NCBI RefSeq assembly: GCF_014192015.1
Contig: NZ_JACHXJ010000001.1
Coordinates: 868,001 to 932,000 of the forward strand
Direction of reading: 5' to 3'
DNA from: Paenibacillus rhizosphaerae
Lineage (GTDB): Bacteria; Bacillota; Bacilli; Paenibacillales; Paenibacillaceae
DNA: 64,000 bases
Shown here: piece after piece, positions 3,007-53,241 of the stretch
Numbering within the stretch: position 1 is the first letter of the stretch
Layout of the letters: each line of letters starts with the position of its first letter
Translations under genes and position numbers: made by a program
Notes under the pieces: generated by a model
Told to the model about the DNA's origin: nothing
The model's database searches: none
Seen by the model: only the letters and a program-made list of their open reading frames with translations

Positions 3007-3035
3007 ATGACAGATTTTAATCGGCATAGTAGAAT
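3007..3035 (+). promoter_or_regulatory. SigmaA-type promoter of the hybrid kinase gene
   Basis: ATGACA at 3007-3012 (5/6 to TTGACA) and TAGAAT at 3030-3035 (5/6 to TATAAT) are separated by exactly 17 bases. This places transcription start near 3042 and rules out the ATG at 3007 as the translation start. Confidence 0.6.
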
Positions 3036-3099
3036 AATAGAGATATCATGTTTATTAGCAATGAACGGTGCAAAATTATGTCGAGAGAGGGATTTGACC

Positions 3100-17369: not shown

Positions 17370-17401
17370 TATTGTCAGGCGTACGACAAAGGAGAGCAGG
17401 C

Positions 17402-20643: not shown

Positions 20644-20675
20644 CAGTGACGCTACATGGACTGGGAGGAAGACGC

Positions 20676-23611: not shown

Positions 23612-24958
23612 ATGGTACGTAAGATGATGACGACGGTGCTATCCGCCGTGATGCTGTTATCCGTTCTGGCAGCATGCACGGGCAAGGGTGCTGAACCCAA
23701 TGCCGAAGAGTCGCAAACCACCAAGCCGGCGGACGCGAAAACCGAAGAAACCGCCAGCACAAATAACCCGGATGAGATCACAGCCGACCTGACCTGGTTT
23801 GGTCTTGCCTCACCCAAGGATTTTGAGGACCGGTACGGACAGTATATAAAGAAAAAATTCCCTAATATCAAAATCACCTACATTAATCAAACGGATGATC
23901 GCAAATTGGAGCAAGTCATCGCATCAGGCACGCAAATTGATATGTATCTGTCCTCTGCCGGCGAATTGCGCGAGGATTACATTCCGGCCAATATGGCGCT
24001 TGATCTCGGTCCTTTGATTAAGTCGCACAATATTCCCGTAGATACGATCGAACCTGCTTATTTGGGACCGGTGACGATTGATCAAAAAACCTATTTACTG
24101 CCTGTCAGCGACAATAAATTCGTGATGTACTACAACAAAAGCATCTTTGATAAATTCGGTGTTCCATATCCGAAGGACGGCATGACTTGGGACGAAGCGA
24201 TTGACCTTTCCAAGAAAATAACCCGGAATGAAGATGGCAAGCAGTATATGGGATTATGGTTATCTCCAAAGCATTATTTACGCGTTGCTCAAAACTCTGC
24301 CGGGTTTGTTGATCCCGAGACGAATAAGGCAACGGTCGATAACGACCAGTGGAAATTCATTTTCGATAACATCTTCTATAAGCTTTCAAGGGACCCGGGA
24401 GTACAGCAGCGTGCGCTTGAGAAATTTTATTCCCATGAGGACTTTATGAAGGATTCGGTCATCGCCATGTATGTGTACACATCCGGCTGGATGAATTCTG
24501 ATGATTCGCTTCCACCGGATTGGGATATCGCATCCGTTCCGGAGTTCAAGGAATACCCGGGATTAAATACGCAGACATATGCAACTTACATCGGCATTTC
24601 GGCCACATCCAAACAGCAGGACGCTGCCGCGGAAATTTTGAAATATTTAACCTCCGAAGAACATCAGACCACCATGTCCAAACGGGGATTCATTACCCCG
24701 CTTCTTACACAATCGGTACGTGATGCTGCCTTTACCGATTACCCGTTCGCCAAAACGAAAAATATTCAAGCCCTGTATCATGGCAAACCGGCTCCTTCAA
24801 GAACTATGACGCAATATGATGAACTTGTTATAGAGGATGCCTTTCAAACGGATGCCATTCCCAAAATCGTAAGAAATCAACTCGATGTCAACACCGCATT
24901 AAGGCAAGCCCAAGAGAATTCGGATAAATTAATTCAAGAACAAATTGCAAAGCAATAA
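23612..24958 (+). CDS. Sugar ABC transporter solute-binding lipoprotein (orphan)
   Basis: A 448-residue family-1 extracellular solute-binding protein. The lipoprotein signal ends LSVLAAC with the lipidated Cys22, followed by a Glu/Thr/Lys-rich linker. The mature part has the usual two-lobe features (DMYLSSAGELREDY, MYYNKSIFDKFGVPYPKDGMTWDE, ATSKQQDAAAEILKYL). AGGGAGG precedes the start. It has its own promoter and terminator and no permease beside it. It may feed one of the permease pairs at 35352-37231 or 41673-43505; the second pair lacks an adjacent binding protein. The substrate is unknown. Confidence 0.9.
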   Translation: MVRKMMTTVLSAVMLLSVLAACTGKGAEPNAEESQTTKPADAKTEETASTNNPDEITADLTWFGLASPKDFEDRYGQYIKKKFPNIKITYINQTDDRKLEQVIASGTQIDMYLSSAGELREDYIPANMALDLGPLIKSHNIPVDTIEPAYLGPVTIDQKTYLLPVSDNKFVMYYNKSIFDKFGVPYPKDGMTWDEAIDLSKKITRNEDGKQYMGLWLSPKHYLRVAQNSAGFVDPETNKATVDNDQWKFIFDNIFYKLSRDPGVQQRALEKFYSHEDFMKDSVIAMYVYTSGWMNSDDSLPPDWDIASVPEFKEYPGLNTQTYATYIGISATSKQQDAAAEILKYLTSEEHQTTMSKRGFITPLLTQSVRDAAFTDYPFAKTKNIQALYHGKPAPSRTMTQYDELVIEDAFQTDAIPKIVRNQLDVNTALRQAQENSDKLIQEQIAKQ

Positions 24959-25085: not shown

Positions 25086-25172
25086 CCTCCAGCGAAACCC
25101 AATGAACAATCTTTACTACAGCACTATGCTAATACCATGGGGCGTAGGCACATGACAGGAGGTGCGTTACGT

Positions 25173-28500: not shown

Positions 28501-28568
28501 CCCCACGTTGCGGCGTGACACGGGAAATTTCTCAAATCCATTTACACACACTTAACCGGGGTGATGAT

Positions 28569-29471
28569 ATGGACTGGCGCGTAACCGAACTGAGCGGTAA
28601 CAAATTTTTTCAACCTGAATTCGATATTTTTATCAACCGTGAAATTGAATCATTCTCTCTCTCACAGCATACCCACGATTTCATCGAAATTAGTTTCGTC
28701 GAAGAAGGAAGCGGTTTTCATTATATCGAGGATCAGATGATTCCGATTAAACGCGGGGATCTGTTCGTGATTCCAATTGGAACGTCACATGTGTTTCGGC
28801 CTTCTTCCCGGGATAAGCAGCTTGTCATTTACAACTGCATCTTTAAGGTCGAATTATTGGAGCAGCTGCGGTCCGTGATTAGCGAGGCTTCGATGCTGTA
28901 CAGATTTTTATATGAAGCGCCGCCCGCTTCCGTCAAGTGGCTGCATTACCAAGACAAGTTTGACAAGTTTCTCAACATCGTCCTTAACATGTACAGGGAG
29001 TTTATTAACAAGAGTCCCTGTTACGAATACCTCATGATGGGGCAGCTTATTCAGGTACTTGCGATGCTGCAGCGCTATGAGTGCGACGGCAGCCTTGTTT
29101 CGACACCGTCCAATAACATGGATGATGCCATTCTGTATATTCATGATCACTTTGCGATGAACATCACGGTCCAGCAAGTAGCAGAGCGATCGTTCATGAG
29201 CCCGAGTCATTTTCAACGGTTGTTCAAAAAAACGTCAGGTGTAACATTCATGCAGTATCTGCAAAATATCCGGATACAGCGCTGCTGCGAGCTGCTCAAA
29301 TCGACCGAGCTGTCCATTCAGGAGGCCGCCAATCAAGTGGGTTACCAGGATATGAAATTTTTCCATGCACTGTTTCGCAGGAAAACCGGCGTGACACCGA
29401 GACAGTACCGAAAAAGCTCACAAGATAACGAAGAGCATTCATTCGGAGCTTCGGAACAAAAAGTCATATGA
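28569..29471 (+). CDS. AraC-family transcriptional regulator
   Basis: A 300-residue regulator. I prefer ATG 28569 behind a GGGGTGAT stretch; a longer GTG frame from 28515 has no ribosome site. The N-terminal cupin (SQHTHDFIEISFVEEGSG to GDLFVIPIGTSHVF) should bind the sugar effector. The C-terminal 100 residues hold two helix-turn-helix motifs (ITVQQVAERSFMSPSHFQRLFKK and SIQEAANQVGYQDMKFFHALFRRKTG-type). It is the only AraC-type protein in the window and sits between the promoter modules with 22-bp CCCTATA repeats, spacing typical for AraC half-sites. It is therefore the best candidate for their activator. Confidence 0.9.
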   Translation: MDWRVTELSGNKFFQPEFDIFINREIESFSLSQHTHDFIEISFVEEGSGFHYIEDQMIPIKRGDLFVIPIGTSHVFRPSSRDKQLVIYNCIFKVELLEQLRSVISEASMLYRFLYEAPPASVKWLHYQDKFDKFLNIVLNMYREFINKSPCYEYLMMGQLIQVLAMLQRYECDGSLVSTPSNNMDDAILYIHDHFAMNITVQQVAERSFMSPSHFQRLFKKTSGVTFMQYLQNIRIQRCCELLKSTELSIQEAANQVGYQDMKFFHALFRRKTGVTPRQYRKSSQDNEEHSFGASEQKVI

Positions 29472-31239: not shown

Positions 31240-32361
31240 ATGGGGCGCATTGTACTCAAAAATGTGGATAAACGGTTTGGCAAAGAAAAACAGTACGCCG
31301 TGAAGGATTTTAACCTGGAGATCGAGGACGGCGAATTTCTGGTGATGGTCGGCCAGTCCGGCTGCGGTAAATCAACGACGCTGCGCATGATCGCCGGGCT
31401 CGAGGACATTACTTCAGGAGAGCTGTATATCGGGGATAAGCTCGTGAATCACCTGCCGCCGAAGGACCGGGATATCGCCATGGTATTCCAGAACTACGCG
31501 CTGTACCCGAACATGAACGTGTATGAAAATATTGCGTTCGGCCTGCGTCTGCGCAAGGAGCCGAAGCATGAGATCGACCAATCCGTAAAGTCGGCCTCCC
31601 GCACGCTGGAGATTGAGCAGTATCTGGAACGAAAGCCGAAGGCGTTATCGGGCGGCCAGCGCCAGCGGGTGGCGCTGGGCAGGGCAATCGTGAGGAAACC
31701 GAGCGTTTTCCTGATGGATGAACCGTTATCCAACCTGGATGCCAAGCTTAGAGTGCAGATGCGCACGGAAATTATCCGGCTGCATAAACAGCTCGGGGTT
31801 ACTACGGTATATGTGACGCACGATCAGGTGGAAGCGATGACGATGGGAAACCGGATTGTCGTGATGAAGGATGGCGTCATTCAGCAGGTTGATAGCCCGC
31901 GCGTGATTTACAGCAATCCGAAAAATATGTTTGTAGCGGGTTTTATCGGGACGCCGCCGATCAACTTTATCGAAGGAACCGTTGAGGAACAGGGCGAGAA
32001 GCTCCAGCTGAAGACGAAACGGACCTATTTAACCATTGCGGACCATCACGCGGAAATGCTGCGGAAGCACGGCAAGGTGAACCGCAAGGTCGTTCTTGGA
32101 ATCCGTTGTGAGAACACGTACGCGGATCCGGAGATGATCGGCCGTCATCCGCAATCCCAAATCCCGGGTACCGTGAAACTTTCGGAGCTCATGGGCGCTG
32201 ATACATATCTATACCTTGATATCGGCAGCGATTCTTCCTTCATCGTTCGAACGCTGACCGGATCGGACTATAAAGACGATGAGCCCGTTACCATCTCGCT
32301 GGATATGTCGAAAGCGCTTTACTTCGATAAGGATACGACGGAAAACCTGATGTACGTATGA
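31240..32361 (+). CDS. Carbohydrate ABC importer ATPase (UgpC/MsmX type)
   Basis: A 373-residue ATPase that energises CUT1-type sugar importers at the cytoplasmic face. Walker [10 protein letters not shown] is at residues 38-46, the signature [14 protein letters not shown] near 135-148 and Walker B VFLMDEP near 155-161, with the D-loop SNLDAKL and the H-loop [12 protein letters not shown]-terminal TOBE-type regulatory region follows. In many Firmicutes such ATPases are encoded apart from the transporters. Here it is the first gene of the importer cassette, so it probably serves both permease pairs. Confidence 0.95.
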
Positions 32362-32386
32362 TATTGGCGAAAGGGAGAGACGGTTC

Positions 32387-35365
32387 ATGTTAAGGGCATT
32401 TAAGAAACGGTTTTCAGTGATTGGTCTGGCCTTGATTCTCGCCTTGATGCCGGCCTCGGCGGGGCTTGCGGAGAATGGCGGCGGGGGGCAGCCCTCCGAC
32501 CAGAAGCAGAGTTCATACGCAGCGGGTAATCAGGAACCGGTTTCTGTAAACGCTGACCATACCGATGAACCCTATTTTCATGAAAAGCTTGCGGAATGGA
32601 AGCAGTCCGGCGCGTCCACCGATCATAACGGCAGCATCGTTGTGCCGGTTGCCGATTATGCGCGCACTTCGGAACAAGCCCATGTTCAGATCGCCACTGT
32701 AGACGGCAAAGCGGGCGTTCTGGATTGGCGCGTCCAAAGCAGCGAATGGATCGAATACGAGCTGAACGTGACGCAAGCCGGGTTGTACCAAATTCATATG
32801 ACTTACCGCCCCGTCACAGATGAAAACCGGAAAAGGCCGATTCTGCTGAATGTCACCTTGGACGGCAAGAACGATTTCATTGAATCCAAATCCATCTCGC
32901 TGGACCGGAGATGGAAAGATCCCGACAAGCTGTCCCTGGATGCGCATGGCGACCAGATTCGGCCAGTAGCCGAGGATATCAGCGGCTGGATGACGACAGC
33001 GCTCCGTGATGCAGGCGGCGCCTACGTCGAACCGCTGGAATGGTTCCTGCAGCCCGGCAAGCATACGCTTCGCTTGACAAGCAATGAGCCGTTGTCCATT
33101 TCGGGGATTGAACTGGGTGCACCCGACCAAATCCAAGATTATGCAGCTGTAAGCAAGTCCTATGCGGAAACGAACGTTGGCAGCGCAGAGGCTAAGCCGA
33201 TTGTGATCGAAGCGGAGAAGGCCGACTGGAAAAGCAATTCCTCGATTTCTTTTAAATACGACAGCGAGATCGAGAGTACGCCCTATAAACGAGGCAAGAT
33301 CCGTTATAACACCATCGACGGCGCCCGCTGGTCCTCCGGTAACGGTGAACTCAGCTGGACATTCGAGGTTCCTGAAAGCGGATACTATAAACTCGGCCTT
33401 CGCGCCAAGCAAAATTTCTCGTCCAACCGTTCCTCCTTCCGAACGATCCGTATCAACGGCCAAATACCGTTCGCCGAAATGGAGACGTACCGGTTTCCGT
33501 ATGCGTCCGGTTGGCAGGGGATCAAACTGGCGGATGATAATGAGCAGCCGTATTTATTTTATTTGAATAAAGGGACCAACACGATTTCCATGCAGGTGAC
33601 CCAGGCACCCGTCAAGCCGATGATCGATGAGCTGGAGAGCATCGTAAGCAAGCTGATGGCTCTTGGCGAGGATCTCAAGGCGCTGACCGGGGGCTCGGAT
33701 GATGAGAACCGGACCTGGAAAATGGATCAGGACTTGCCCGGTTTCACGGCGGACGTGGATCAAACCGCAGATACGTTGGAACGCGTCCAGCAGAGCCTGG
33801 TTGAAGTGAATGGCAGGAAGAGCGATGTCACGCAAGGACTGCTCACTTCACTGAAGGATATCCGGTCTATGCTGTCCGACCCGAACCAAATCCCCTATCA
33901 AATCGACAATTTCATTACGATCCAGGGAAAGGTAGCCGACCTGCTGCAGCAGTTAAAAAGTCAGCCACTAGGACTGGACCGCCTGTATATCGTACCGTCG
34001 AACCAGCCGTACCCGCGGATGGAATCGACGTTCTTCGAAAAGGTGGAGGGCTCGTTCGTCAATTTCTTTTACTCCTTCCAATCCAAGGATAAGCTTGGCG
34101 ATATGGATGAAGATGTGCTGAACGTGTGGGTGCTGCGCGGGCGCGATTACATCAACGCATTGCAGGAGCTTGCGGATGCGGAATTCACGCCGAAGACGGG
34201 AATCAAGGTAAAAATCAACTTGCTGCCGGATACTAACCTGCTGGTTCTGATGAACGCGGCGGATATTTCCCCAGATATCGCACTCGGATTGCCGCAGACG
34301 CTTCCCTACGATTACGCCATTCGCAACGGATTGTACGATCTCTCGAAGTTCCCTGATTTCAATTCGATGTATCAGCGCTTTGCGCCGGGGACGTGGCTGC
34401 CTTTTTATTACGACAATGGGTATTACGGGGTGCCCGAGACCCAAAGCTTCTCCATGCTGTATTACCGCAAGGACATCCTCGACAAGCTGGGGCTCAACGT
34501 TCCAAACACGTGGGAGGATGTCTATGACATGCTGCCGATTTTGCAGCAGAACAATTTGAATATGATGACGGTCCCGCATACGCCGTTCTTTTACCAGAAC
34601 GGAGCGGAATATTTCACGAAGGACGGCATGCATACGGGCATAGGCACGGAAGCCGGCTACAAGGCATTTAAAGAGTGGACCGATTTGTACAACGTGTACG
34701 CCGTTCCGCAGCAGGTCGCCAGCTTCTACCAGTCGTTCCGCAGCGGCACCGTGCCGATCGGGATCGCCGATTTCAGCATGTACATTCAATTAATGGTGGC
34801 TGCGCCCGAGTTGAACGGATATTGGGGAATTGCCCCGGTTCCGGGCGTTCCGCAGCAGGATGGAGAAGTCGCCAGATGGATGGGAGGAACGGAACAGGCA
34901 GCCGTCATTTTCAAACGTACGAAAAAGGCAAGCGAAAGCTGGGAGTTTCTCAAGTGGTGGACGTCGGCCGATACGCAGGAATCGTACGGTTCCGATCTGG
35001 AAACGCTGAACGGCCTGACTTTCCGTTGGAACACCTCCAATATCGAAGCTTTTGTCCATCTTCCTTGGAGGCAGGACGACTTGAACGCGATTCTTGAGCA
35101 GTGGCGCTGGTATAAGGAAATTCCAAACGTACCGGGCAGTTACTTCCTGGAGCGGGAACTGCAGAATGCCTGGAACCGTACCGTTGTCGACGGAATGAAT
35201 TACCGGAGCTCGCTCGAAACGGCTATCGGAGAAATCGAGAGGGAAATGCAGAGGAAGATGCAGGAATTCGGGATTACGGACAGCCAAGGGAAAGTTCTCC
35301 GCAAGCAGGAGCTGCCTGAAGTGAACAAACCGTGGGAAGGGGTGGATCCATATGTCCAGAAGTGA
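32387..35365 (+). CDS. Giant solute-binding protein with N-terminal CBM-like domains
   Basis: A 992-residue secreted protein. A Sec signal peptide (about 1-29, ending PASAGLA) lacks a lipobox Cys. Two beta-sandwich modules follow: about 60-250, and about 265-410 beginning IVIEAEKADW, like CBM6/CBM35 modules. Next is a helical, probably coiled-coil spacer (about 410-525), then a family-1 solute-binding domain (about 570-965; GVPETQSFSMLYYRKDILDKLGLNVPNTWEDVYD). Ordinary binding proteins are near 430 residues, so this is a fusion. It overlaps the first permease gene by 14 bases. It probably captures a large or branched glycan and passes it to the permeases. Confidence 0.88.
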   Translation: MLRAFKKRFSVIGLALILALMPASAGLAENGGGGQPSDQKQSSYAAGNQEPVSVNADHTDEPYFHEKLAEWKQSGASTDHNGSIVVPVADYARTSEQAHVQIATVDGKAGVLDWRVQSSEWIEYELNVTQAGLYQIHMTYRPVTDENRKRPILLNVTLDGKNDFIESKSISLDRRWKDPDKLSLDAHGDQIRPVAEDISGWMTTALRDAGGAYVEPLEWFLQPGKHTLRLTSNEPLSISGIELGAPDQIQDYAAVSKSYAETNVGSAEAKPIVIEAEKADWKSNSSISFKYDSEIESTPYKRGKIRYNTIDGARWSSGNGELSWTFEVPESGYYKLGLRAKQNFSSNRSSFRTIRINGQIPFAEMETYRFPYASGWQGIKLADDNEQPYLFYLNKGTNTISMQVTQAPVKPMIDELESIVSKLMALGEDLKALTGGSDDENRTWKMDQDLPGFTADVDQTADTLERVQQSLVEVNGRKSDVTQGLLTSLKDIRSMLSDPNQIPYQIDNFITIQGKVADLLQQLKSQPLGLDRLYIVPSNQPYPRMESTFFEKVEGSFVNFFYSFQSKDKLGDMDEDVLNVWVLRGRDYINALQELADAEFTPKTGIKVKINLLPDTNLLVLMNAADISPDIALGLPQTLPYDYAIRNGLYDLSKFPDFNSMYQRFAPGTWLPFYYDNGYYGVPETQSFSMLYYRKDILDKLGLNVPNTWEDVYDMLPILQQNNLNMMTVPHTPFFYQNGAEYFTKDGMHTGIGTEAGYKAFKEWTDLYNVYAVPQQVASFYQSFRSGTVPIGIADFSMYIQLMVAAPELNGYWGIAPVPGVPQQDGEVARWMGGTEQAAVIFKRTKKASESWEFLKWWTSADTQESYGSDLETLNGLTFRWNTSNIEAFVHLPWRQDDLNAILEQWRWYKEIPNVPGSYFLERELQNAWNRTVVDGMNYRSSLETAIGEIEREMQRKMQEFGITDSQGKVLRKQELPEVNKPWEGVDPYVQK

Positions 35366-36332
35366 TACTCAGGTGATGAACCGCGGTTACGCCCCCGGTA
35401 CCACCGTTCGCACGAAGGGGAAGCTGTCTCTCCTGATGAAAGAGATTTGGCGCTATCGGCTGTCATACCTATTCATCGCGCCGTTTATGATCTGCTTTAC
35501 GTTTTTTATCCTAGTCCCGGTCGTGTGCGCGCTGCTGCTCAGCTTTACGTCCTATAACTCGCTCGAACCGCCGCGTTTCATCGGTTGGGCGAATTTTCGA
35601 TACATGATTTCAGGCGATTTGCTGTTCCTGCAGTACGCATTGCCGAATACGTTTAAATTCGCTGTTATTGCCGGGCCGCTCGGTTACATTGCTTCTTTCC
35701 TGCTGGCATGGCTCATTTCCATCCTTCCCGGCGTCTGGCGCAAATGGTTCGCACTCGCGATGTATTCGCCCTCACTCATGGGCGGGATCGCGATGACAAT
35801 TGTTTGGCTGCCTCTATTAAGCGGGGACCGCATCGGTTATTTAAACAGTTTCCTGCTGGAATGGGGATTCATTAAAGAGCCGGTCCTGTGGGTCACGAGC
35901 AAGGACCATCTCATGACATCAATGATTGTGGTCACTTTGTGGTCCAGTATGGGAATCGGCTTTCTAGCGATGCTGGCAGGGATATTAAACGTGAATCCGG
36001 AGCTGTATGAAGCCGGAAAGCTGGACGGCATTAAATCCAGACTGGAAGAAATCTGGTACATTACGATTCCGTCGATGAAGCCGCAGATGCTGTTCGGCGC
36101 CGTGATGGCGATTGTCGGCACGTTCAAGGCCGGCGGCATCGGGACGCAGCTGTCCGGCATGAATCCGACACCGCAGTATTCGGGTCACCTCATCATGAAC
36201 CAGATTGACGATTACGGCTTTATCCGCTTCGAGCTTGGCTATGCAAGCGCATTGTCCGTATTCCTGCTGCTGCTGATGTATTTATCCAATAAGTTCTGCT
36301 GGCGGCTGTTCGGATCAAAGGGGGATGAATAA
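35352..36332 (+). CDS. Sugar ABC transporter permease, MalF type (pair 1)
   Basis: A 326-residue inner-membrane permease with six predicted transmembrane helices, the first near residues 35-60 (YLFIAPFMICFTFFILVP). The ATPase-docking EAA loop is EAGKLDGIKSRLEEIWYITI near residue 220. The start overlaps the giant binding protein gene by 14 bases, and the next permease begins two bases after its stop. It forms the heterodimeric channel with the 36335 product. Confidence 0.95.
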   Translation: MSRSDTQVMNRGYAPGTTVRTKGKLSLLMKEIWRYRLSYLFIAPFMICFTFFILVPVVCALLLSFTSYNSLEPPRFIGWANFRYMISGDLLFLQYALPNTFKFAVIAGPLGYIASFLLAWLISILPGVWRKWFALAMYSPSLMGGIAMTIVWLPLLSGDRIGYLNSFLLEWGFIKEPVLWVTSKDHLMTSMIVVTLWSSMGIGFLAMLAGILNVNPELYEAGKLDGIKSRLEEIWYITIPSMKPQMLFGAVMAIVGTFKAGGIGTQLSGMNPTPQYSGHLIMNQIDDYGFIRFELGYASALSVFLLLLMYLSNKFCWRLFGSKGDE

Positions 36333-36334
36333 CT

Positions 36335-37231
36335 ATGACGATCCCTTTCACTCGAAAGCGGTTCCGTTTCAGAAGGCGATCCAAGCTGTTCAGGCTGAGC
36401 CGGTTTGAGGTGCTGATTACCTTGCTGCTGGTGCTGCTGAGTGCGTTCATGCTGCTGCCGCTCGTTTACATTTTCAATCATGCATTCAAGCCGTACGATG
36501 AATTGTTCATCTATCCGCCGACCATATGGGCACGCCAACCGTCGCTGCAAAACTTTATCGAGCTGTTCAATATTACATCGGAACAAGTTGTGCCGGTTAC
36601 GCGCTATATCTTCAACAGCTTGGTCGTCGCCGTGCTCAGCGTAGTTGTGGTCACGCTGGTCAGCGCATTATGTGCGTACCCGCTGTCGAAGCATAAGTTT
36701 CCCGGTTCCCAGCTCGTGTTCGCGACGATCATGCTCACTATGCTGTTCGCGCCGGAGACAGTAACGATTCCGCGGTATCTCGTCGTCAGCCATTTAGGCA
36801 TTATGAATACGTATTGGGGTCACGTCCTGCCCATGGTTGCCGTACCGGTCGCCGTCTTTCTCATGAAGCAGTTCGTTGACCAAATTCCGGACGATCTGCT
36901 CGAGTCGGCACGGATGGACGGGGCCCGCGAGTTTACGGTGTTTCTGCGTATTGTCGTGCCCGTCATCATGCCTGCTGTCGCCACCATCGGCATTATTTCG
37001 TTCCAGACCGCCTGGGGCAACGTCGAATCGTCCACGTTATTTATGCAGAACGAAGAGATGAAGACATTCCCTTATTTTGTATCGACGCTGACGGCGAATA
37101 TGGCCAACAGCGTGGCAAGACAGGGGGCGGTCGCGGCGGCGGCGCTGTTCATGTTTATACCGAACCTGATTATTTTCCTTGTTTTCCAAAGCAAGGTGAT
37201 CGCAACGATGGCCCATTCCGGCATTAAATGA
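36335..37231 (+). CDS. Carbohydrate ABC transporter permease, MalG type (pair 1)
   Basis: A 298-residue permease with six helices. The EAA motif is ESARMDGAREFTVFLRIVVP near residue 190. The N-terminal 25 residues are strongly basic (RKRFRFRRRSK), anchoring the cytoplasmic end. It is tightly spaced after the MalF-type gene and 18 bases before the NHL/Yip1 gene. Confidence 0.95.
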   Translation: MTIPFTRKRFRFRRRSKLFRLSRFEVLITLLLVLLSAFMLLPLVYIFNHAFKPYDELFIYPPTIWARQPSLQNFIELFNITSEQVVPVTRYIFNSLVVAVLSVVVVTLVSALCAYPLSKHKFPGSQLVFATIMLTMLFAPETVTIPRYLVVSHLGIMNTYWGHVLPMVAVPVAVFLMKQFVDQIPDDLLESARMDGAREFTVFLRIVVPVIMPAVATIGIISFQTAWGNVESSTLFMQNEEMKTFPYFVSTLTANMANSVARQGAVAAAALFMFIPNLIIFLVFQSKVIATMAHSGIK

Positions 37232-37249
37232 ATCACGGGAGGAGAACTT

Positions 37250-39397
37250 ATGAAGCCGGCAAAGTTGAAAATAATCCGTCTCCTGTGGGGCTTGTTGGCT
37301 GTGTGCCTCGTATGGGTCGGTTATCCGGCGGTTGCATCCGCCGATTATCCTTATGCAACGAATTATAGAAGCGAAACGGATCCGCTGGTATGGACGCAGG
37401 CCGCATTCGCGCCGGAGCAGGTGCTGGGCCGGGATATTTTCATCCCTGATCCGGAGGATCCGCAGAAGCAGGTGCTCTCGCCGCTTGCGCAGCCCAGCGA
37501 CCTGTTCGTCGATTCGCAGGATGTTATCTACGTCGCCGATACAGGCAACAATCGGATCGTCGTCTTCCAGCGGGACGGAACGTTTGATCGGGTGCTCCCG
37601 GCGCTTCCGGAAAAGCCGCTGTCAAGCCCGAAGGGACTGTACGTTGACGGGAAGGGCCATATTTATGTGGCCGATACCGGCAATGCACGGATCGTGATGC
37701 TTGATTCAGACGGAAAGCTGCTGAAGGAATATACGCTTCCGAAATCGCGTTTCATTCCCGAAGGATACCGCTTTGAACCGATCAAGGTCGCGGTGGATAA
37801 GCGGGGATACGTATACATCGTCTCGCTGGGTAGCTATAACGGGCTCCTTCAGCTTGATCCTGACGGCGGTTTCGTCCGATTCTTTGCTGCGAACAAGGCG
37901 CCGTTCACGCTGCTGGACTCCATTAAGCGGAAAATTTATACGAGAGCGATGTACGAGAAGCAAATCAGCAAGCTGCCTCCTGCGATCAACAATGTAAATA
38001 TCGACGAACGCGGTTTTGTGTACACCGTTTCGTTTGGTGAACAGCTGAAGAGCTCGCAAGTGAAGAAGCTGAATTACGCTGGTAAGGATTTTCTCGCTTC
38101 CGATAACTCGACGGGAACGAGCAACGATACATTCGGCGAAATCCGGTTTGCTGCTGCAACCCAGATCCCGAACTTAACCGATATCGCCGTTGACCGGCTC
38201 GGGAATTTCTCCGTCATCGACAGCGATTCGAAAGTGATCAGCCAATATGACACGTTCGGCAACCTGCTGTTTTTCTGGTCAGGCGACGCAAGTCCGAACA
38301 CCACGCAGCTCGGCATCGTGAAGAGCCCGGCGGCCATCGACATCAATTCCCAGAACGAGATTTACATTCTGGACAACAATGCAAACCTGATTCAGAAGTT
38401 CCGCCAAACGGAATTCGGCGCACTCGTCTATAAAGCAAACAATTTGACCATCGACGGAAGATATAAGGAAGCGGAGCCCGTCTGGCGTGAAGTGCTGCAT
38501 CTGAACGCGTATTATACGCCGGCCGTTATCGGCCTCGCCCAAGCAGCGTATTCCCGCGGGGATTATCCGGAAGCGAAGAAGCTGTACCTTCAGGCAGGCA
38601 TACAAAAAGGGTACTCCAATGCGTTTTGGCAAATCCGTCTCGAATGGCTGCAGGATCGGTTCGGCCTCTTAATGAACATCCTGATTGGCGTCATTGTCCT
38701 GTACATTCTGTACAGGATCGCTGCGAAACGCTATCCCGCGCTGAGCCGGTTAAGGCTGTCGCGTATCCGGCTGACCTCGCGGTTTATAGGGCAATTAAGG
38801 CACACCTTCTATGTTCTGCGGCATCCGGTTGACGGCTTCTATGCGCTCCGGTATGAACATAAAGGCAGTTACCTGAGCGCATGCGTCGTTCTCGTGCTTG
38901 CCTATATCTCCTATGCCGTCATCCGATCGTATACGAGTTTTTCCTTTAACGCCGAGGCGATCAAAGCGCTGAGCGCAACGACCGTATTTCTGCAGTTTTT
39001 CCTGGTATGGGTCGGATGGGTGATATCGAACTACCTGGTGAGCAGCATTATGCGCGGCGAAGGCCGGTTTAAGGACGTATTTATCGGCAGCTCCTATGCG
39101 CTTACGCCGTTCATCGTCGTAGGTTTGCCATTAACGCTTATATCAAACGGCATGTCGTTGAGCGAAGAGTCCATCTATCAATTTCTTCATCAAGGGATGT
39201 ACGTATGGGTGTTTCTGCTGCTCATCTGGAAGGTGATGTCGATTCAAAATTATACCGTTGGCGAGACGGCCGTTAATTTACTGTATACCGTCGGTACGAT
39301 GGTTATTATCGGAGTGCTGTGCTTCATCCTGTTCGGTCTGTCGACCGAGCTGCGCAGCTTCATCTACTCGATCGTTCAGGAGGTGTCGGTGCGTTGA
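37250..39397 (+). CDS. NHL beta-propeller / TPR / Yip1 membrane protein
   Basis: A 715-residue protein. A signal peptide (about 1-31) precedes NHL repeats (about 75-390) with the typical IYVADTGNNRIVVF and IYVADTGNARIVML strands. A TPR-like pair follows (about 400-455), then a transmembrane helix (about 472-492, LLMNILIGVIVLYILYRIA). After a basic cytoplasmic segment comes a Yip1-type domain with about five helices (530-715). The propeller should face outward. It sits between permease pair 1 and the DUF5696 gene and overlaps the latter by four bases, so it is probably a structural or sensory part of the importer. No enzymatic motif is visible. Confidence 0.8.
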   Translation: MKPAKLKIIRLLWGLLAVCLVWVGYPAVASADYPYATNYRSETDPLVWTQAAFAPEQVLGRDIFIPDPEDPQKQVLSPLAQPSDLFVDSQDVIYVADTGNNRIVVFQRDGTFDRVLPALPEKPLSSPKGLYVDGKGHIYVADTGNARIVMLDSDGKLLKEYTLPKSRFIPEGYRFEPIKVAVDKRGYVYIVSLGSYNGLLQLDPDGGFVRFFAANKAPFTLLDSIKRKIYTRAMYEKQISKLPPAINNVNIDERGFVYTVSFGEQLKSSQVKKLNYAGKDFLASDNSTGTSNDTFGEIRFAAATQIPNLTDIAVDRLGNFSVIDSDSKVISQYDTFGNLLFFWSGDASPNTTQLGIVKSPAAIDINSQNEIYILDNNANLIQKFRQTEFGALVYKANNLTIDGRYKEAEPVWREVLHLNAYYTPAVIGLAQAAYSRGDYPEAKKLYLQAGIQKGYSNAFWQIRLEWLQDRFGLLMNILIGVIVLYILYRIAAKRYPALSRLRLSRIRLTSRFIGQLRHTFYVLRHPVDGFYALRYEHKGSYLSACVVLVLAYISYAVIRSYTSFSFNAEAIKALSATTVFLQFFLVWVGWVISNYLVSSIMRGEGRFKDVFIGSSYALTPFIVVGLPLTLISNGMSLSEESIYQFLHQGMYVWVFLLLIWKVMSIQNYTVGETAVNLLYTVGTMVIIGVLCFILFGLSTELRSFIYSIVQEVSVR

Positions 39398-41676
39398 CCA
39401 GGGCAAGAAAGCGAGACTTCAACTTCAAGCTGACGAAGCTGCTTCCCGGAACCGTTTGCATCCTGGTTGCAGCGGCGGCCGGCATCTACATATGGACGCA
39501 TTCCGTCAGCGGAACATCAAATGTCACCGAGCAAGCGCAGGCGGCAGAGGCCGCCATTCCTGCAGATTTGAAACCGGCTGTCAGTACAAGCGGCGATTTA
39601 CCGAATGATGCCGACTTTGAGCAGGTAGCAGAAACAGGCAAGCTGGTTCTGTATGCGGATAAGCACACCGGACATTTCAAGGTCCGTGACAAAAGGGACG
39701 GCCATGAACTGAGGTCGTACCCGAATCCGGAAGATTGGCCATATGAAACCATCAGCGGCAATTGGCGCAGCAATCTGCTCTCCCCGATTATGATGGAGAC
39801 GATCGACACGGCTAAACAGACCGAGGTTCTGGTAAGCAGCTTGCTGTCGCAAAAAGGCGGCATCATGAGCTGGAAACCGGTCGAGCACGGATTCGCGGTC
39901 ACTTTCGCGCTTCCTTCGCTTCAATTAATAATTCCGGTCGAGGTCACGATTAAGGACGATTACGTGGAAACAAAGGTTATTGATTCGGGCATTGCCGAAG
40001 GAAAGAACCAGCTGCTCAGCTTAAAAGCCTATCCGTTTCTGGGCGCTGCACAGCCCCGCGGGCAAGAGGGGTACATTCTGCTGCCGGACGGTTCGGGCGC
40101 GATCTATAACCTGAAGGAGAATATCACGAATGACCGCAGCGTGTACCGTGAGCCGATTTACGGCCCCGACAGCGCGTACGCCCCGATATTTACGAACCGG
40201 AAGCCGGTCACGATGCCGATCTACGGCATCAAGTCGGGCGGCAGCGCTTTTCTGGCTGTAGCGGATCAAGGGGCGGAATACGGCGCTATTTATGCGGCCC
40301 AAGCAGGCGTGTACAGCAAATATGCCTGGGCTACGATTGAGCAGGAATATCGCATGCAGTACTTCCAGCCGACCTCGGTCGATCAAAAGACGGGTTTTAA
40401 TACGTACAGCAAAGTCAGATTCGGGGAGGACCGCGCGGTCCGTTATTACGTTCTTCCCAAAACGGAGAGTGATTACTCCGGTATGGCCGCAAGGTACCGT
40501 CAATATTTAACCGAAGAGCAGAACATGAAGCGGCTTCAGACAGCCGGCTCACCGCTTCCTTTATTTCTCGATATCGTGGGCGGCGATTCGCAGAAGGGCT
40601 TCCTTCAGAACAAGTTTATTACCGGAACGACGACGGTTGAGGCGCAGTCGATCCTGGATCGCCTTCATTCGCAGGGCATCCCGTTCATTGTGGCCACCTA
40701 TCAAGGATGGCAGACCGGAGGGGTCAGCCGGTTCGGGTTCGGGACGCAGGTTGATAAGCATCTGGGCGGCAACACAGGTATGAAAAGCCTGGCTGAGTAC
40801 GCGAAGTCAAAAGGAGATACGCTTTTGCTCGAGACGAATTACACCTTGAATACGGACGGCGGCGATTTTAACCCGAAAAGGGAAGCGATGCAGGATCAGG
40901 CAGGAGGAATACTCAAGTTTAACCGCCGCGAGGCGAACGATCAGATTGCTTTGGTCAGTCCGGCGGTGTCGCTGGACAGGATCAAGAGCCGGATCGATTC
41001 GTTTAAGGCGCTGGGAGTCGATGGACTGGCGCTTGCCGGCACGGGCTCGAGCCTGGACAGCAACTATAACCGGAAATACGCGGCAAACCGCAGCGAGGCT
41101 GCGAAACTGCAGCAGGAATTTATCGATACGGTCAAGTCGGAGTTTTCCACCGTGAGCACGATCGGCGGCAACGCTTATGCTCTTCAGAAAACGAATGCCG
41201 TCCGGTCCATTTCAGGGGACTACTCTTACGATTTGTTTTTGGATGAACCCGTGCCGTTTGCGCAAATGGTACTGCATGGCTTGGTCCCATATACGATGAA
41301 CTGGGGGAATGCAAGAGACGAGTATCAAAAAGACTTCCTGCGCAGCATCGAATACGGGGCTGCTCCGGCCTTTGGCGTGATGCAGGCAAAGACAGAGGAG
41401 ATGAAGCGTGCATACTCGGTTTGGCAGTACAGTCTGAACTTTGACGAGTGGGAGCCATCTATCCTGCAGGAGTATAAGCGATATAGCGAAGCGCTCGGGG
41501 ATGTTCAGGACCAGTTCATCATGAGTAACCGGACGGTCGCTCCCAATGTGAAGGAGACCGTATATGCGAATGGGAAGAAAATTATCGTGAACTACAACAA
41601 TACGCAAGTCACGGTGGCAGGACGGCAGATTCCAGCAAATGATTTTATCGTCGTGAAAGGAGGAGAGGGGTCATGA
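39394..41676 (+). CDS. DUF5696-type membrane-anchored extracellular protein
   Basis: A 760-residue protein. I chose TTG 39394 because AGGAGGTG lies ten bases upstream; the start overlaps the previous stop (TTGA). One N-terminal helix (about 16-36, LLPGTVCILVAAAAGIYIWTH) anchors it. The remainder is extracellular: a beta-sandwich (about 90-370) and a barrel-like region (about 380-660; PLFLDIVGGDSQKG, GIPFIVATYQGWQTGG, LLLETNYTLNTDGGDF, GVDGLALAGTGSSLDSN), with an overall resemblance to large glycosidases. A short beta tail follows. I recognise it as the DUF5696 group, which has no known activity. It overlaps the next permease by ATGA. Confidence 0.72.
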   Translation: MTRARKRDFNFKLTKLLPGTVCILVAAAAGIYIWTHSVSGTSNVTEQAQAAEAAIPADLKPAVSTSGDLPNDADFEQVAETGKLVLYADKHTGHFKVRDKRDGHELRSYPNPEDWPYETISGNWRSNLLSPIMMETIDTAKQTEVLVSSLLSQKGGIMSWKPVEHGFAVTFALPSLQLIIPVEVTIKDDYVETKVIDSGIAEGKNQLLSLKAYPFLGAAQPRGQEGYILLPDGSGAIYNLKENITNDRSVYREPIYGPDSAYAPIFTNRKPVTMPIYGIKSGGSAFLAVADQGAEYGAIYAAQAGVYSKYAWATIEQEYRMQYFQPTSVDQKTGFNTYSKVRFGEDRAVRYYVLPKTESDYSGMAARYRQYLTEEQNMKRLQTAGSPLPLFLDIVGGDSQKGFLQNKFITGTTTVEAQSILDRLHSQGIPFIVATYQGWQTGGVSRFGFGTQVDKHLGGNTGMKSLAEYAKSKGDTLLLETNYTLNTDGGDFNPKREAMQDQAGGILKFNRREANDQIALVSPAVSLDRIKSRIDSFKALGVDGLALAGTGSSLDSNYNRKYAANRSEAAKLQQEFIDTVKSEFSTVSTIGGNAYALQKTNAVRSISGDYSYDLFLDEPVPFAQMVLHGLVPYTMNWGNARDEYQKDFLRSIEYGAAPAFGVMQAKTEEMKRAYSVWQYSLNFDEWEPSILQEYKRYSEALGDVQDQFIMSNRTVAPNVKETVYANGKKIIVNYNNTQVTVAGRQIPANDFIVVKGGEGS

Positions 41677-42539
41677 GCGGCTGGATTCGGATAAAGAACG
41701 TTTTCACCCAGCGGTATGAGGGGATATTGCTCATCTTGCCCTGGATCGTCGGGTTCCTGTTATTCGTTTCGTTCCCCCTCTTTTATTCGCTGTATATGAG
41801 CTTTCACAGCGTACGCATTACCGGGAACGGTATTCTTACCGAATTCGTCGGATGGAAGTATTATTCGAATATTTTGTTCCAGGACGGCGGCGTCTTTTAC
41901 GATCAGCTGCTTCCGTTTCTGCGGCAGGTGCTGTTTATGATTCCAATCATCGTCATCTTCTCGTTTATGATTGCGATCATGCTGAACCAAAAGTTTTTCG
42001 GGAGGGGCTTGTTCCGGGCGGTCTTCTTTCTTCCGGTCATTTTTTCATCGGGCAACGTCATCCAGCGTTTCCTAAGCCAGGGCCGAGGGGAGCTCGGGTT
42101 CCTCGAGAAATATTCCATCTCGACGGCGCTCACGCAATACTTGCCTGCTTCCTGGTCAATGCCAATCGTCACCGTCCTGAATTCCTTCATCCTGATTCTA
42201 TGGTATTCCGGCGTTCAAATTTTACTGTTTCTTGCGGGACGGCAGACGATCTCGTCATCGGTGTACGAGGCCGCTCGTATTGACGGAGCCAATCCATGGG
42301 AAGTGTTCTGGAAGATCACACTGCCGGCGATGATGCCCTTTGTGCTCTTGAATACGGTTTACACGGTCGTAGACTTGTTTACGTTCCCCGGGAATCCGAT
42401 CATCGCGAGCGTCAATCCGACGCAGTACGGCCCTACGAGCGCGCTGATTTGGGTATATTTCATCATCATCCTGCTGTTCCTGGGGCTTGTATTCCTGGTG
42501 CTGGGAAGAGCGGCTCGGGGCACGACATTTACGAGGTAG
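41673..42539 (+). CDS. Sugar ABC transporter permease, MalF type (pair 2)
   Basis: A 288-residue permease with six helices. The EAA loop is EAARIDGANPWEVFWKITLP near residue 200. The start shares ATGA with the DUF5696 stop. It is short of the N-terminal extension found in the pair-1 MalF protein. No binding protein is encoded beside this pair. Confidence 0.95.
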   Translation: MSGWIRIKNVFTQRYEGILLILPWIVGFLLFVSFPLFYSLYMSFHSVRITGNGILTEFVGWKYYSNILFQDGGVFYDQLLPFLRQVLFMIPIIVIFSFMIAIMLNQKFFGRGLFRAVFFLPVIFSSGNVIQRFLSQGRGELGFLEKYSISTALTQYLPASWSMPIVTVLNSFILILWYSGVQILLFLAGRQTISSSVYEAARIDGANPWEVFWKITLPAMMPFVLLNTVYTVVDLFTFPGNPIIASVNPTQYGPTSALIWVYFIIILLFLGLVFLVLGRAARGTTFTR

Positions 42540-42551
42540 GGGGAGACCACG

Positions 42552-43505
42552 ATGGAGAAAGTGATAAACGTCCTGCGGAAGCAGCATATGCGCTCCGGTT
42601 TATACGGGCTTGGCGAGCGCCTTAGGGTCCTGCTGTTCGGACGTGAAGCCGATAAGGGGCTGATCTTCCGGCTGTTCATTTACATTGTGCTGATCGAAAC
42701 GGCATACCTGTATTTGAATCCTATACTTTATATGATTTCTACCATGGTTAAGGGACTGAGCGATTTACTGGATCCGACTGTAAATTGGATCCCGAAGTCG
42801 ATCTATTGGGGACATCTGAAAGAAGCATGGACGTCGCTGAATTACCCGGTTTCGTTCGGCGTCAGCGCCAGCCTGTCCCTCGCATCTTCGCTCATTCAGC
42901 TTATTTCCTGCGCTATGGCGGGTTATGCGTTCGCGAGACTAAAGTTTCCGTTCAAGAAATTTTGGTTTGCATGCCTGATCTTCACGTTCATTATTCCGCC
43001 GCAGGTCACCGTGCTGCCATTGATTTTGATGTACAGGGAAGTAGGATGGGTTGACACGTATTTCCCGATGATCATCCCCACGCTGTTTGGGCATGGACTG
43101 AAGGGCGCGCTGTATGTCATCATTTACCGTCAGTTTTTCTCTGTCCTCCCAAAGGAGCTGGAAGAAGCGGCGAAAATCGACGGTGCGAGCATATACCGCG
43201 TTTTCTTCAAGGTGATGCTGCCGATCGCGACGCCCGCGATTGTCGTCGTGTTCTTGTTCTCCTTCGTATGGAGCTGGAACGACAGCTATTTTCCGATGAT
43301 GTTCCTGTTCAAAATGCAGGATGTGCCGCTGTCCATTGCGCTGGCGAAAGCGACCGCCGCCACGGGCACCAATGAAGGCAAAATATTCGCGCAGTCGATC
43401 GAAATGGCAAAGTCATTTTTATCCGTGATGCCGCCGCTCGTCTTGTATATGTTCACGCAGCGCTGGTTCGTGGAAGGCGTTGAGCGGACCGGTCTGGTCG
43501 AATAG
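42552..43505 (+). CDS. Carbohydrate ABC transporter permease, MalG type (pair 2)
   Basis: A 317-residue permease with six helices and the EAA loop EEAAKIDGASIYRVFFKVML near residue 210. A basic N-terminal segment of about 38 residues precedes the first helix. It lies 12 bases after the pair-2 MalF gene and 27 before the second GH140-like gene. Confidence 0.95.
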   Translation: MEKVINVLRKQHMRSGLYGLGERLRVLLFGREADKGLIFRLFIYIVLIETAYLYLNPILYMISTMVKGLSDLLDPTVNWIPKSIYWGHLKEAWTSLNYPVSFGVSASLSLASSLIQLISCAMAGYAFARLKFPFKKFWFACLIFTFIIPPQVTVLPLILMYREVGWVDTYFPMIIPTLFGHGLKGALYVIIYRQFFSVLPKELEEAAKIDGASIYRVFFKVMLPIATPAIVVVFLFSFVWSWNDSYFPMMFLFKMQDVPLSIALAKATAATGTNEGKIFAQSIEMAKSFLSVMPPLVLYMFTQRWFVEGVERTGLVE

Positions 43506-46776: not shown

Positions 46777-48900
46777 ATGAAGACATTCCGGCTGGCAAGT
46801 CGTGCCGGTAATCGAATCGTTGAGCTGCGGCAGTCGGACAACGATATTGATTGGCAGCTGACTAGCGGGGGAGACGCCAAGCCTTATTTTAGCGATTCGT
46901 TAAGCCGTATGGCGGTGTGCTCCCAAGGGCGTCCATGGCGCGCCGATCGGATCACGCTTAAGTCTTCGCGGGTCGAGTGCGATGACGATATGCTGCGCGT
47001 GGCCGCGGATTGCGGTGAGCTCCACCTTGCGATCGAGCTGAGCTTCGATGCGGAAGGACTGCTCCGCGTGGATGTGACATGGGAAAACACGGGAGACGTG
47101 ACTTTGAAAGACGCCGCCGTGGGCCTGGAATGGGAGCTTGGCACCCGCGGCAAAGAGAACGTGACCATTCCGCATATGATCTACAATAACAATCCGTCCG
47201 CCGATCCGGCAAGGCTTGTACCGCGTCTTGGCGTCGGGGAGTTTCAGGGGTTCATCTGTGAAGAGCACCGGCTGCCCATTCCATGCGTCAACGTGGAATG
47301 GGAGGAGGATAAGGGTCATCAAAGGTCGTTCACCTTGTTCTCACTGCCCTCTTATATCGAGTCGGAGGACGGCACCGTTCATTACGGCTCGCTCGGCGCA
47401 TACAGACGAAACGGAAATATTTCGCTGACGGCTATGAGCGGCGTGCTGATGTTCAACGGCGAAAAGGATATCGTCTATGTGAGTAAAAGCTTGACGGGAC
47501 CTTATGACGGCGGCTATACCGATTTTCCCCCGGGTTTCTCCCTAACAAAGCATTATGTGTTGGAATGGGGTCCGCAGCAGGTGCCGGGCCGGGCCTTCTC
47601 ACAGGTCGTTCACCGCGCTGTCCGGCTGTATGAGCCGAGAGGGGCAGCCCCGCATTCAATTGATGAGCTGATCCGATTGAAGACTCTGGCGATGGATGAC
47701 CGCTGGCGGGAGACGGAGCAAGCTGCCGGTTATGTGAAGTTCAATGACCGGAATGCATTCGGCCTCGTTTCGAAGCATGGGCTGCATTATATGTACGGCT
47801 GGACGGGACAGTGCCTGAAGCTGGCGTGGTGCGACGCTTTTATCGGATTCGGCGAGCGGGATTCCGAACGCATGCTGCGGTGCAAAAAAGCGGTGAGCTT
47901 TTACCTGAAAGGAAGCGGTACCGCGGTGCCCGGGCTTCGCAGCAGCTCGTACCATCTGTCAGACGGCCGCTGGGAAAATTTCCATCGGCAGCTGGAGGCG
48001 GTCGTCTCAAGCCGTGCCTTTGGAGAAACAGAGAGCGACTTGGCGGACATTATTCTGTTATTCCGCAGCAGAGGCGAGGCGGTGCCGGAGGATTGGACGG
48101 ATGAGCTTAAACGATCCGCGGATTTCCTGCTCAGCGCAGCCATGCCTTCAGGCATTTTTCCGGCGAGCTGGAGCTTGGATGGGCAAGCAGCCGAGACGGA
48201 AATTACGGCTGCCGGCATTCCGTGTGTCATCGCATTACTGAAAGCTTACCAGGTTACGGGCGAAGCCACCTACCTCCAAGTCTCGACATCCTCCATGGAA
48301 CGCTATTATGAGCTGCATGCCAAGACCTTTGAGCGACCATTCGCACGGTCCACGCTGGATGCAAGATGCGAGGACAAGGAGGCGGGGATGTTTTTCTTCA
48401 TCGCGGCCTATGAGCTGTTCCGGCTGACCGATGAAGCTGAGTACCGGGAATGGGCCGAAATCGCAGCGGACTGGATTCTGACTTATGTGTATCTGTGGAA
48501 TCCGGCTTATGATCAAGGATCAGCGTTTAGGGAACGGGGATTCAATGCCGTGGGCTGGCCGGGCGTGAGCGTGCAGAATCATCACCTCGACGTCTTCTTT
48601 CCGACGTATGAGCTGTGGCAATTCGGACGCCTTACTGGAAACGAAATGTACGTTCGCCTGGCCCGGACGATCTTTGACGCCCTTGGCCAGGGCATTTGCA
48701 CCAAGCCGGGCGAGTGGGGATTTACCGTCGTTGGAGAACAGGCCGAAGGATTTTTTCAATCCAATTTTCAGGGGCGGGGGCGCTCCAATACCTGGAATCC
48801 GTCATGGGTCATTTCGGAGGTGCTTCATCATGCCCTTCGTTTTCGGGCTGCCCTGGCACAAGAGGATGAAGCGCTTCAAGGAAGGGTCAATTATCACTGA
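46777..48900 (+). CDS. Uncharacterised (alpha/alpha)-toroid protein
   Basis: A 707-residue protein without a family I can name. Residues 1-290 look like a beta-sandwich (LLRVDVTWENTGDVTLKDAAVGLEWELG). Residues 330-690 are helical with a toroid-like periodicity (GIPCVIALLKAYQVTGEATYLQVS, AGMFFFIAAYELFRLTDEAEYREWAEIAADW, VQNHHLDVFFPTYELWQFGRLTG). This resembles glycosidases and lyases of the (alpha/alpha)6 type. No signal peptide is present. AAGGAG precedes the start. It lies between the GH140-like pseudoenzyme and the DapA-family lyase, so a cytoplasmic sugar-processing role is likely but unproven. Confidence 0.65.
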   Translation: MKTFRLASRAGNRIVELRQSDNDIDWQLTSGGDAKPYFSDSLSRMAVCSQGRPWRADRITLKSSRVECDDDMLRVAADCGELHLAIELSFDAEGLLRVDVTWENTGDVTLKDAAVGLEWELGTRGKENVTIPHMIYNNNPSADPARLVPRLGVGEFQGFICEEHRLPIPCVNVEWEEDKGHQRSFTLFSLPSYIESEDGTVHYGSLGAYRRNGNISLTAMSGVLMFNGEKDIVYVSKSLTGPYDGGYTDFPPGFSLTKHYVLEWGPQQVPGRAFSQVVHRAVRLYEPRGAAPHSIDELIRLKTLAMDDRWRETEQAAGYVKFNDRNAFGLVSKHGLHYMYGWTGQCLKLAWCDAFIGFGERDSERMLRCKKAVSFYLKGSGTAVPGLRSSSYHLSDGRWENFHRQLEAVVSSRAFGETESDLADIILLFRSRGEAVPEDWTDELKRSADFLLSAAMPSGIFPASWSLDGQAAETEITAAGIPCVIALLKAYQVTGEATYLQVSTSSMERYYELHAKTFERPFARSTLDARCEDKEAGMFFFIAAYELFRLTDEAEYREWAEIAADWILTYVYLWNPAYDQGSAFRERGFNAVGWPGVSVQNHHLDVFFPTYELWQFGRLTGNEMYVRLARTIFDALGQGICTKPGEWGFTVVGEQAEGFFQSNFQGRGRSNTWNPSWVISEVLHHALRFRAALAQEDEALQGRVNYH

Positions 48901-53182: not shown

Positions 53183-53241
53183 AGGATGGCGTATTGCCGT
53201 GACAAGAAAATTGAAAGATGCTATCGGAGGTGCTACAAACA

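Follow-up and report, generated by a model that had tools for sequence, protein, structure and literature searches.

Importers of the CUT1 class (MalEFGK, UgpABCE, MsmEFGK) are built from a substrate-binding protein (SBP) of family 1, two permeases with EAA loops and an ATPase of the MalK/UgpC type with OB/TOBE domains. Each operon carries a single permease pair, and in monoderms the SBP is a lipoprotein. Larger assemblies for glycan uptake are familiar from Bacteroidota, in which SusCD systems capture glycans at the surface with the help of accessory glycan-binding proteins and neighbouring glycoside hydrolases, and Gram-positive polysaccharide utilisation loci bring together a regulator, transporters and degrading enzymes. 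A glycosidase-like ectodomain beside a transporter is represented by the SLC3 heavy chains 4F2hc and rBAT, which are anchored by a single transmembrane segment.

We describe here a cassette in a 64,000-nucleotide stretch of the Paenibacillus rhizosphaerae genome (hereafter the window) and its homologues in other Bacillota. The cassette is a variant of the CUT1 importers and shares all three of the above components with them; it departs from them in possessing two dedicated permease pairs, a 992-aa, mostly non-lipidated SBP with CBM-like modules, and obligate NHL/Yip1 and DUF5696 partners. Its resemblance to SusCD is one of idea, in that Pfam finds neither a TonB-dependent barrel nor SusD in the eight proteins and the cassette is built on ABC permeases. 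The SLC3 comparison is an analogy with no homology claimed, those heavy chains being GH13-like, eukaryotic and partnered with another transporter class. Like the Gram-positive utilisation loci, the window locus contains a regulator, transporters and degrading enzymes. By profile homology the DUF5696 protein resembles the GH129 and GH129-like enzymes NagBb (5wzn) and DagB (5opq), from which it differs by having no Pfam GH129 match, by its membrane anchor and by leaving the catalytic Asp unaligned. No description of the cassette was found in the literature searched, a search made without most subscription journals. We consider the best explanation, at moderate confidence, to be a dedicated CUT1-type carbohydrate importer platform that has two pores and draws on exchangeable conventional SBPs.

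The eight-gene block and its recurrence in Bacillota

The block occupies window positions 31240–43505 and consists of eight ORFs, all on the + strand; an earlier claim that these are consecutive genes joined by short overlaps and gaps is borne out by the ORF coordinates and Pfam domains. It opens with a UgpC/MalK-type ATPase (31240..32361; Pfam ABC_tran, OB_MalK and TOBE_2; NCBIfam UgpC at 454.6 bits, cut-off 432), an optional part of the cassette, followed after a gap of 25 bases by the giant SBP (32387..35365; 992 aa; Pfam SBP_bac_1), whose gene runs 14 bases into that of permease MalF1 (overlap 35352–35365; MalF1 35352..36332, BPD_transp_1, EAA loop ELYEAGKLDG). Two bases separate MalF1 from MalG1 (36335..37231; BPD_transp_1 with EAA loop), and 18 bases lie between MalG1 and a gene in which NHL, TPR and Yip1 domains are fused (37250..39397; Pfam NHL, TPR_19 and Yip1). 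A TTGA overlap (39394–39397) leads into the DUF5696 gene (39394..41676; PF18952, E about 1.7e-168 to 1.9e-168); the mechanical ORF call placed its start at GTG 39319, which we set aside in favour of TTG 39394 (760 aa, with the TTGA overlap). A further 4-base overlap (41673–41676) joins DUF5696 to MalF2 (41673..42539; BPD_transp_1, EAA loop VYEAARIDG), and a gap of 12 bases precedes MalG2 (42552..43505; BPD_transp_1 with EAA loop). Upstream, on the same + strand, are an AraC-type regulator (28515..29471; HTH_18/AraC_binding) and a conventional SBP (23612..24958; SBP_bac_1, E 6.1e-25) that belongs to the same locus and is a possible exchangeable partner. Promoter- and terminator-like sites within the block were not clearly more numerous than in shuffled sequence, and lend no support to one-transcript status.

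We collected 68 DUF5696 loci, comprising the window, four others of its genome, a locus from Paenibacillus sp. XY044 (L017; about 90% identical, and the sole near relative from a single-protein contig search), two from plasmids and 60 from other genomes; removal of the near-duplicates L094 and L105 left 66 non-redundant loci. NHL and Yip1 profiles, built from these same loci, match in 68/68. The canonical order giant SBP–MalF1–MalG1–NHL–Yip1–DUF5696–MalF2–MalG2 is present in 50 of the 66, the second half is placed first in five, the second half (NHL–Yip1–DUF5696–MalF2–MalG2) stands alone in ten, and one locus is truncated; some of the half loci lie at contig borders and others (e.g. L049, L051, L071) do not. 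Two permease pairs are thus found in 55/66 loci, and throughout the set all module genes share one strand, with median junctions ranging from −26 to 12 bases (negative values being overlaps). Far from occurring apart from transporters, the NHL, Yip1 and DUF5696 genes adjoin MalF2 and MalG2 in 65/66 loci, the exception being truncated. The preliminary description had put an ATPase at the head of this order; the succession from SBP to MalG2 recurred as described in those 50 loci, whereas an ATPase gene sits directly upstream of the giant SBP in only 14/66. NHL and Yip1 are fused in 33/66 loci and are separate genes in the other half, and no other fusion between components was found.

The distribution of the cassette is wider than Paenibacillaceae, and plasmids of two species, Paenibacillus cellulosilyticus and Butyrivibrio fibrisolvens, carry the canonical order as well; the B. 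fibrisolvens copy lacks an ATPase gene and encodes NHL and Yip1 separately. Adjoining the P. cellulosilyticus cassette are four LLM-class flavin monooxygenases and two SBPs (L006, 21447–30670), an unusual cargo context. Beyond Bacillota the search covered plasmid and phage records; a scan of viral contigs with the DUF5696 alignment was unproductive. Two phage-labelled records from human faeces, both UNVERIFIED “Bacteriophage sp.” entries (L122, MT835600.1; L123, MT835587.1), contain the core genes, seven to eight of them, in the canonical order, and are most likely mislabelled bacterial contigs.

At the level of whole genomes, the same 37 of 398 Bacillota genomes give strong DUF5696 and strong Yip1-subfamily matches, with none of the 361 others doing so at that strength; these counts are not phylogenetically independent, and derive from the best three DUF5696, best seven Yip1 and best four giant SBP candidates of each genome. 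Genomes with weak matches alone were excluded, namely 9 of the 46 that match DUF5696 and 33 of the 70 that match Yip1 (at or below 51 bits). Three of the weak DUF5696 matches were checked against Pfam and rejected as members, two being DUF6259 proteins and one an alpha-amylase. In 80 of 81 strong Yip1 loci DUF5696 comes next, within 2.5 kb, and in the 81st the contig runs out after the first part of DUF5696; an independent Pfam model agrees, in that all five Yip1 genes of the window’s genome adjoin its five DUF5696 genes. The giant SBP is present in 37/37 DUF5696 genomes (36 with an N-terminal region above 400 bits, G103 as a contig-end fragment), and outside these exceeds 400 bits only in G104 and G154, in each case on a short contig (3.8 and 4.3 kb) and followed by MalF1. 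Copy numbers of DUF5696 and giant SBP are equal in G101 (3 vs 3) and G342 (4 vs 4), and unequal in G165 (about 8 vs 4) and G135 (10 vs 4). Five genomes of 2.2–3.0 Mb (G040, G062, G082, G135, G165) show a striking expansion, to about 8 to 20 DUF5696 matches with fragments included.

The DUF5696 ectodomain

The DUF5696 protein is predicted to comprise an N-terminal membrane anchor and a GH129-like ectodomain. Hydropathy gives at least one transmembrane stretch in 61/68 family members; the window protein has such a stretch at its N-terminus and a second, weaker call within the ectodomain. The family profile matches DagB (5opq, E 8.7e-12), a related periplasmic protein (8rzg/8rzk, E 7.6e-12) and the GH129 enzyme NagBb (5wzn, E 7.7e-11, covering part of the barrel); judged by these profiles, DUF5696 is distantly related to GH129-like glycosidases. 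Plain membership of GH129 was rejected, PF11308 being unmatched in 32 members at E values up to 1. The GH129 Pfam model returned nothing in 149 Bacillota genomes and was silent in control genomes too, such that this result is no evidence of absence; a plasmid search with a DagB fragment was unproductive. Two structure models, DUF5696 among them, were made from two near-identical rows; both failed, with pLDDT values of 29.5 and 30.9.

The excerpted account of DagB describes a beta-sandwich, a TIM barrel and an Ig-like domain, with its authors suggesting a new family, and equates DagB Asp486 with the catalytic Asp435 of NagBb (PMC5698469). Distant homology to these active enzymes (5opq, 5wzn) raises the prospect that DUF5696 is itself an active exo-glycosidase, anchored in the membrane and representing a new family, that trims oligosaccharides before import, and not a scaffold or receptor. 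The retention of E653 (56/58), D557 (52/58) and D617 (45/58) in most of 58 non-redundant sequences would agree with catalysis; however, the profile alignment ends ahead of the Asp435/Asp486 position that the same excerpt identifies (PMC5698469), no Asp or Glu is invariant across the barrel region (360–690), and the window protein carries Asn at 557. We regard an active DUF5696 enzyme as a serious possibility, albeit not a probable one.

Binding proteins, permeases and the shared history of the module

The giant SBP has a signal/transmembrane segment (9–27), two CBM-like modules and a helical region (about aa 60–540) and an SBP_bac_1 domain (aa 590–865; E 6.2e-26). That it bears two CBM-like domains, as first proposed, holds for the family (among 22 homologues CBM_35 is matched in six and CBM_6 in two, and the family profile finds solved structures of CBM-bearing enzymes and of coiled coils), but in the window protein itself the modules stay under the Pfam cut-offs (Golvesin_C 1.8e-4, GH115_C 5.8e-4). 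Secreted proteins of about 530–545 aa resembling its N-terminal part are encoded in one other Bacillota family (L118 8678–10312, L119 5151–6743, L121 977–2584), without an SBP domain and with no transporter adjoining.

By a crude pattern, a lipobox-like motif is present in 3/38 giant SBPs vs 33/49 conventional SBPs of Paenibacillaceae; across all loci the same crude pattern finds it in 4/57 giant and only 38/78 conventional SBPs. An unlipidated secreted SBP in a monoderm would need another tether, which makes the NHL/Yip1 and DUF5696 membrane proteins obvious candidates; alternatively, the signal segment might stay uncleaved and hold the protein. Conventional SBPs lie within a stretch of roughly 20 kb in 54/66 loci, the window being scored as having none because its gene is more than 10 kb from DUF5696.

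The permeases of the cassette form subfamilies of their own. With profiles built without sequences of the window’s genome, five of its permeases score 408–502 bits for MalF1 (next, 178; 150 candidates scored, 127 matches) and five score 318–368 bits for MalF2 (next, 165; 150 candidates scored, 151 matches), and in both instances the top five are those of the genome’s five cassettes. The window MalF1 itself reaches 435 bits vs 178 for the top non-cassette permease, and the window MalF2 318.5 bits vs 165. The Glu and Gly of the EAA loop are 100% conserved in all four permease groups (57, 57, 67 and 67 sequences), and each permease would therefore be able to couple to an ATPase.

Inter-locus distances of different module proteins correlate at 0.67–0.91 (55 loci). 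Measured against DUF5696, module proteins give r values of 0.81–0.87 (45 loci) while the nearest same-strand conventional SBP, used as a control over the same 45 loci, gives 0.43–0.49, which argues that the module is inherited as a block and that conventional SBPs are exchanged. Paralogous cassettes within a genome reproduce this (0.82–0.98, and 0.99 for the two SBP parts, in 18 pairs; 0.52–0.70 for the conventional SBP control, in 14 pairs). Across Bacillota a single heritable unit comprises the giant SBP, MalF1, MalG1, NHL, Yip1, DUF5696, MalF2 and MalG2. The preliminary description had taken these genes for one functional unit beyond a standard CUT1 transporter, and this gains strong genetic support from the fixed gene order, co-occurrence, the dedicated permease subfamilies and the shared history.

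The main rival to a single platform is a pair of separate CUT1 importers with a common operon and ATPase, one made of giant SBP, MalF1 and MalG1, the other of MalF2 and MalG2 with a conventional SBP, and with NHL/Yip1 and DUF5696 serving the second only. With the common signal taken out, the correlations between pairs of trees fall to about zero or below, the exceptions being the SBP halves and pairs within a transporter (MalF1–MalG1 0.37, MalF1–SBPc 0.22, MalG1–SBPc 0.16, MalF2–MalG2 0.15; two of 0.07); they indicate no specific contact between the two cassette halves, and the positive values for MalF1–MalG1 and MalF2–MalG2 suit two importers. So do the ten loci with the second half alone and the five with swapped halves, the unequal DUF5696 and giant SBP copy numbers of some genomes, and the frequency of conventional SBPs (54/66). 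Set against this are the giant SBP in every one of the 37 DUF5696 genomes and otherwise above 400 bits only on the G104 and G154 contigs, together with the common history of both halves within a genome (0.82–0.99); we hold two independent importers to be doubtful. For the four permeases, an arrangement as two heterodimers is as likely as one complex.

The window NHL protein combines a secreted propeller, a TPR-like stretch and a transmembrane Yip1 domain. It could instead lie outside the import path, as a sensor or as a factor in permease assembly or stability, given that NHL and TPR are general protein-interaction folds and that Yip1 here is a predicted membrane domain only; however, Pfam detects no signalling domain in it, and the exact genome co-occurrence of the Yip1 subfamily with DUF5696 suits a structural part as well, and we consider such an accessory role unlikely. 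An ordinary transporter operon with chance neighbours, to which the commonness of each domain type taken singly would lend itself, is contradicted by gene order, co-occurrence, the dedicated permease subfamilies and the conventional SBP control, and we reject it as wholly improbable.

A putative pectin locus and the candidate import platform

The cassette lies within what appears as an RG-II-type pectin degradation locus (8824–57066), containing relatives of enzymes described chiefly in Bacteroides. Two genes encode homologues of BPa0997/alpha-D-galacturonidase (53218–55953, E 4.2e-208; 20646–23408, 847 bits), both matches falling short of NCBIfam's threshold of 1300. The 5mqr enzyme corresponds to two genes in the window, one per module, the first half being matched at 17372–19234 (E 8.6e-156) and the other, of GH142 type, weakly at 25137–27308 (E 9.2e-14). 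Three apiosidase-like enzymes, GH95, GH29, GH28, GH2 and a pectinesterase complete the set, such that GH138-, GH143-, GH142-, apiosidase-, GH95- and GH28-type homologues occur together. We take 5mqr and BPa0997 to be RG-II enzymes, and the family numbers GH138, GH142 and GH143 are those we presume for the matched PDB entries. The excerpt of PMC7922503 states that GH137–GH143 debranch RG-II and are found primarily in Bacteroidetes; the window locus belongs to Paenibacillaceae.

Two further proteins of the locus (46777–48900, 707 aa; 15617–17290, 557 aa) match nothing in Pfam at 1e-5 or in the PDB at 0.01; they are possible new pectin-active enzymes. At 3007–8565 the window encodes a hybrid histidine kinase of 1852 aa, which has a GAF domain besides seven or eight matches to HAMP and three to receiver domains. 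In a survey of the flanks of the cassettes, 102 of 120 ORFs were scanned (the 18 omitted being short, cut or too large) and 41 were SBP_bac_1, a raw count with no background set; the others included GH10, GH5, GH3, GH30, GH31, GH43 and apiosidase-like enzymes and AraC/LacI regulators.

The most likely cargo of the window cassette would be fragments of rhamnogalacturonan-II-type pectin. The large or branched oligosaccharide substrate suggested in the preliminary description fits both the RG-II-type enzyme neighbourhood and the predicted CBM-like modules.

For the single two-pore platform that we favour, the parts may be envisaged to work as follows. The NHL/TPR/Yip1 protein and the anchored DUF5696 would build a membrane-bound scaffold at the surface and keep the giant SBP, which is mostly non-lipidated, in place; the propeller, the CBM-like modules and the GH129-like barrel would all take part in capturing oligosaccharides. 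One pore, a MalF1–MalG1 heterodimer, would be fed by the giant SBP; the other, a MalF2–MalG2 heterodimer, would be tied to DUF5696 and NHL/Yip1 and probably fed by exchangeable conventional SBPs. Import through both would be driven by a UgpC/MsmX-type ATPase, whose gene may lie in the operon or at another site. Only tentatively do we extend this to its most specific form, a distinct class of Gram-positive ABC glycan importer whose two dedicated pores work with an obligatory surface platform, in which a GH129-derived DUF5696 without canonical catalysis would act as receptor or gate, NHL/TPR/Yip1 would hold the non-lipidated giant SBP, and conventional SBPs would swap specificity.

These findings provide a testable role for DUF5696, for bacterial NHL–Yip1 proteins and for two generically annotated permease subfamilies, and concern 37 of the 398 sampled Bacillota genomes and 67/98 of the window’s own family. 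If the cassette is one machine, it would be a Gram-positive, multi-part capture-and-import platform for complex glycans, in which a glycosidase-like ectodomain has been added to an ABC importer, and it would explain how branched fragments, e.g. of RG-II, pass the monoderm envelope. The cassette suggests that complex plant sugars have an uptake machine that has received little study.
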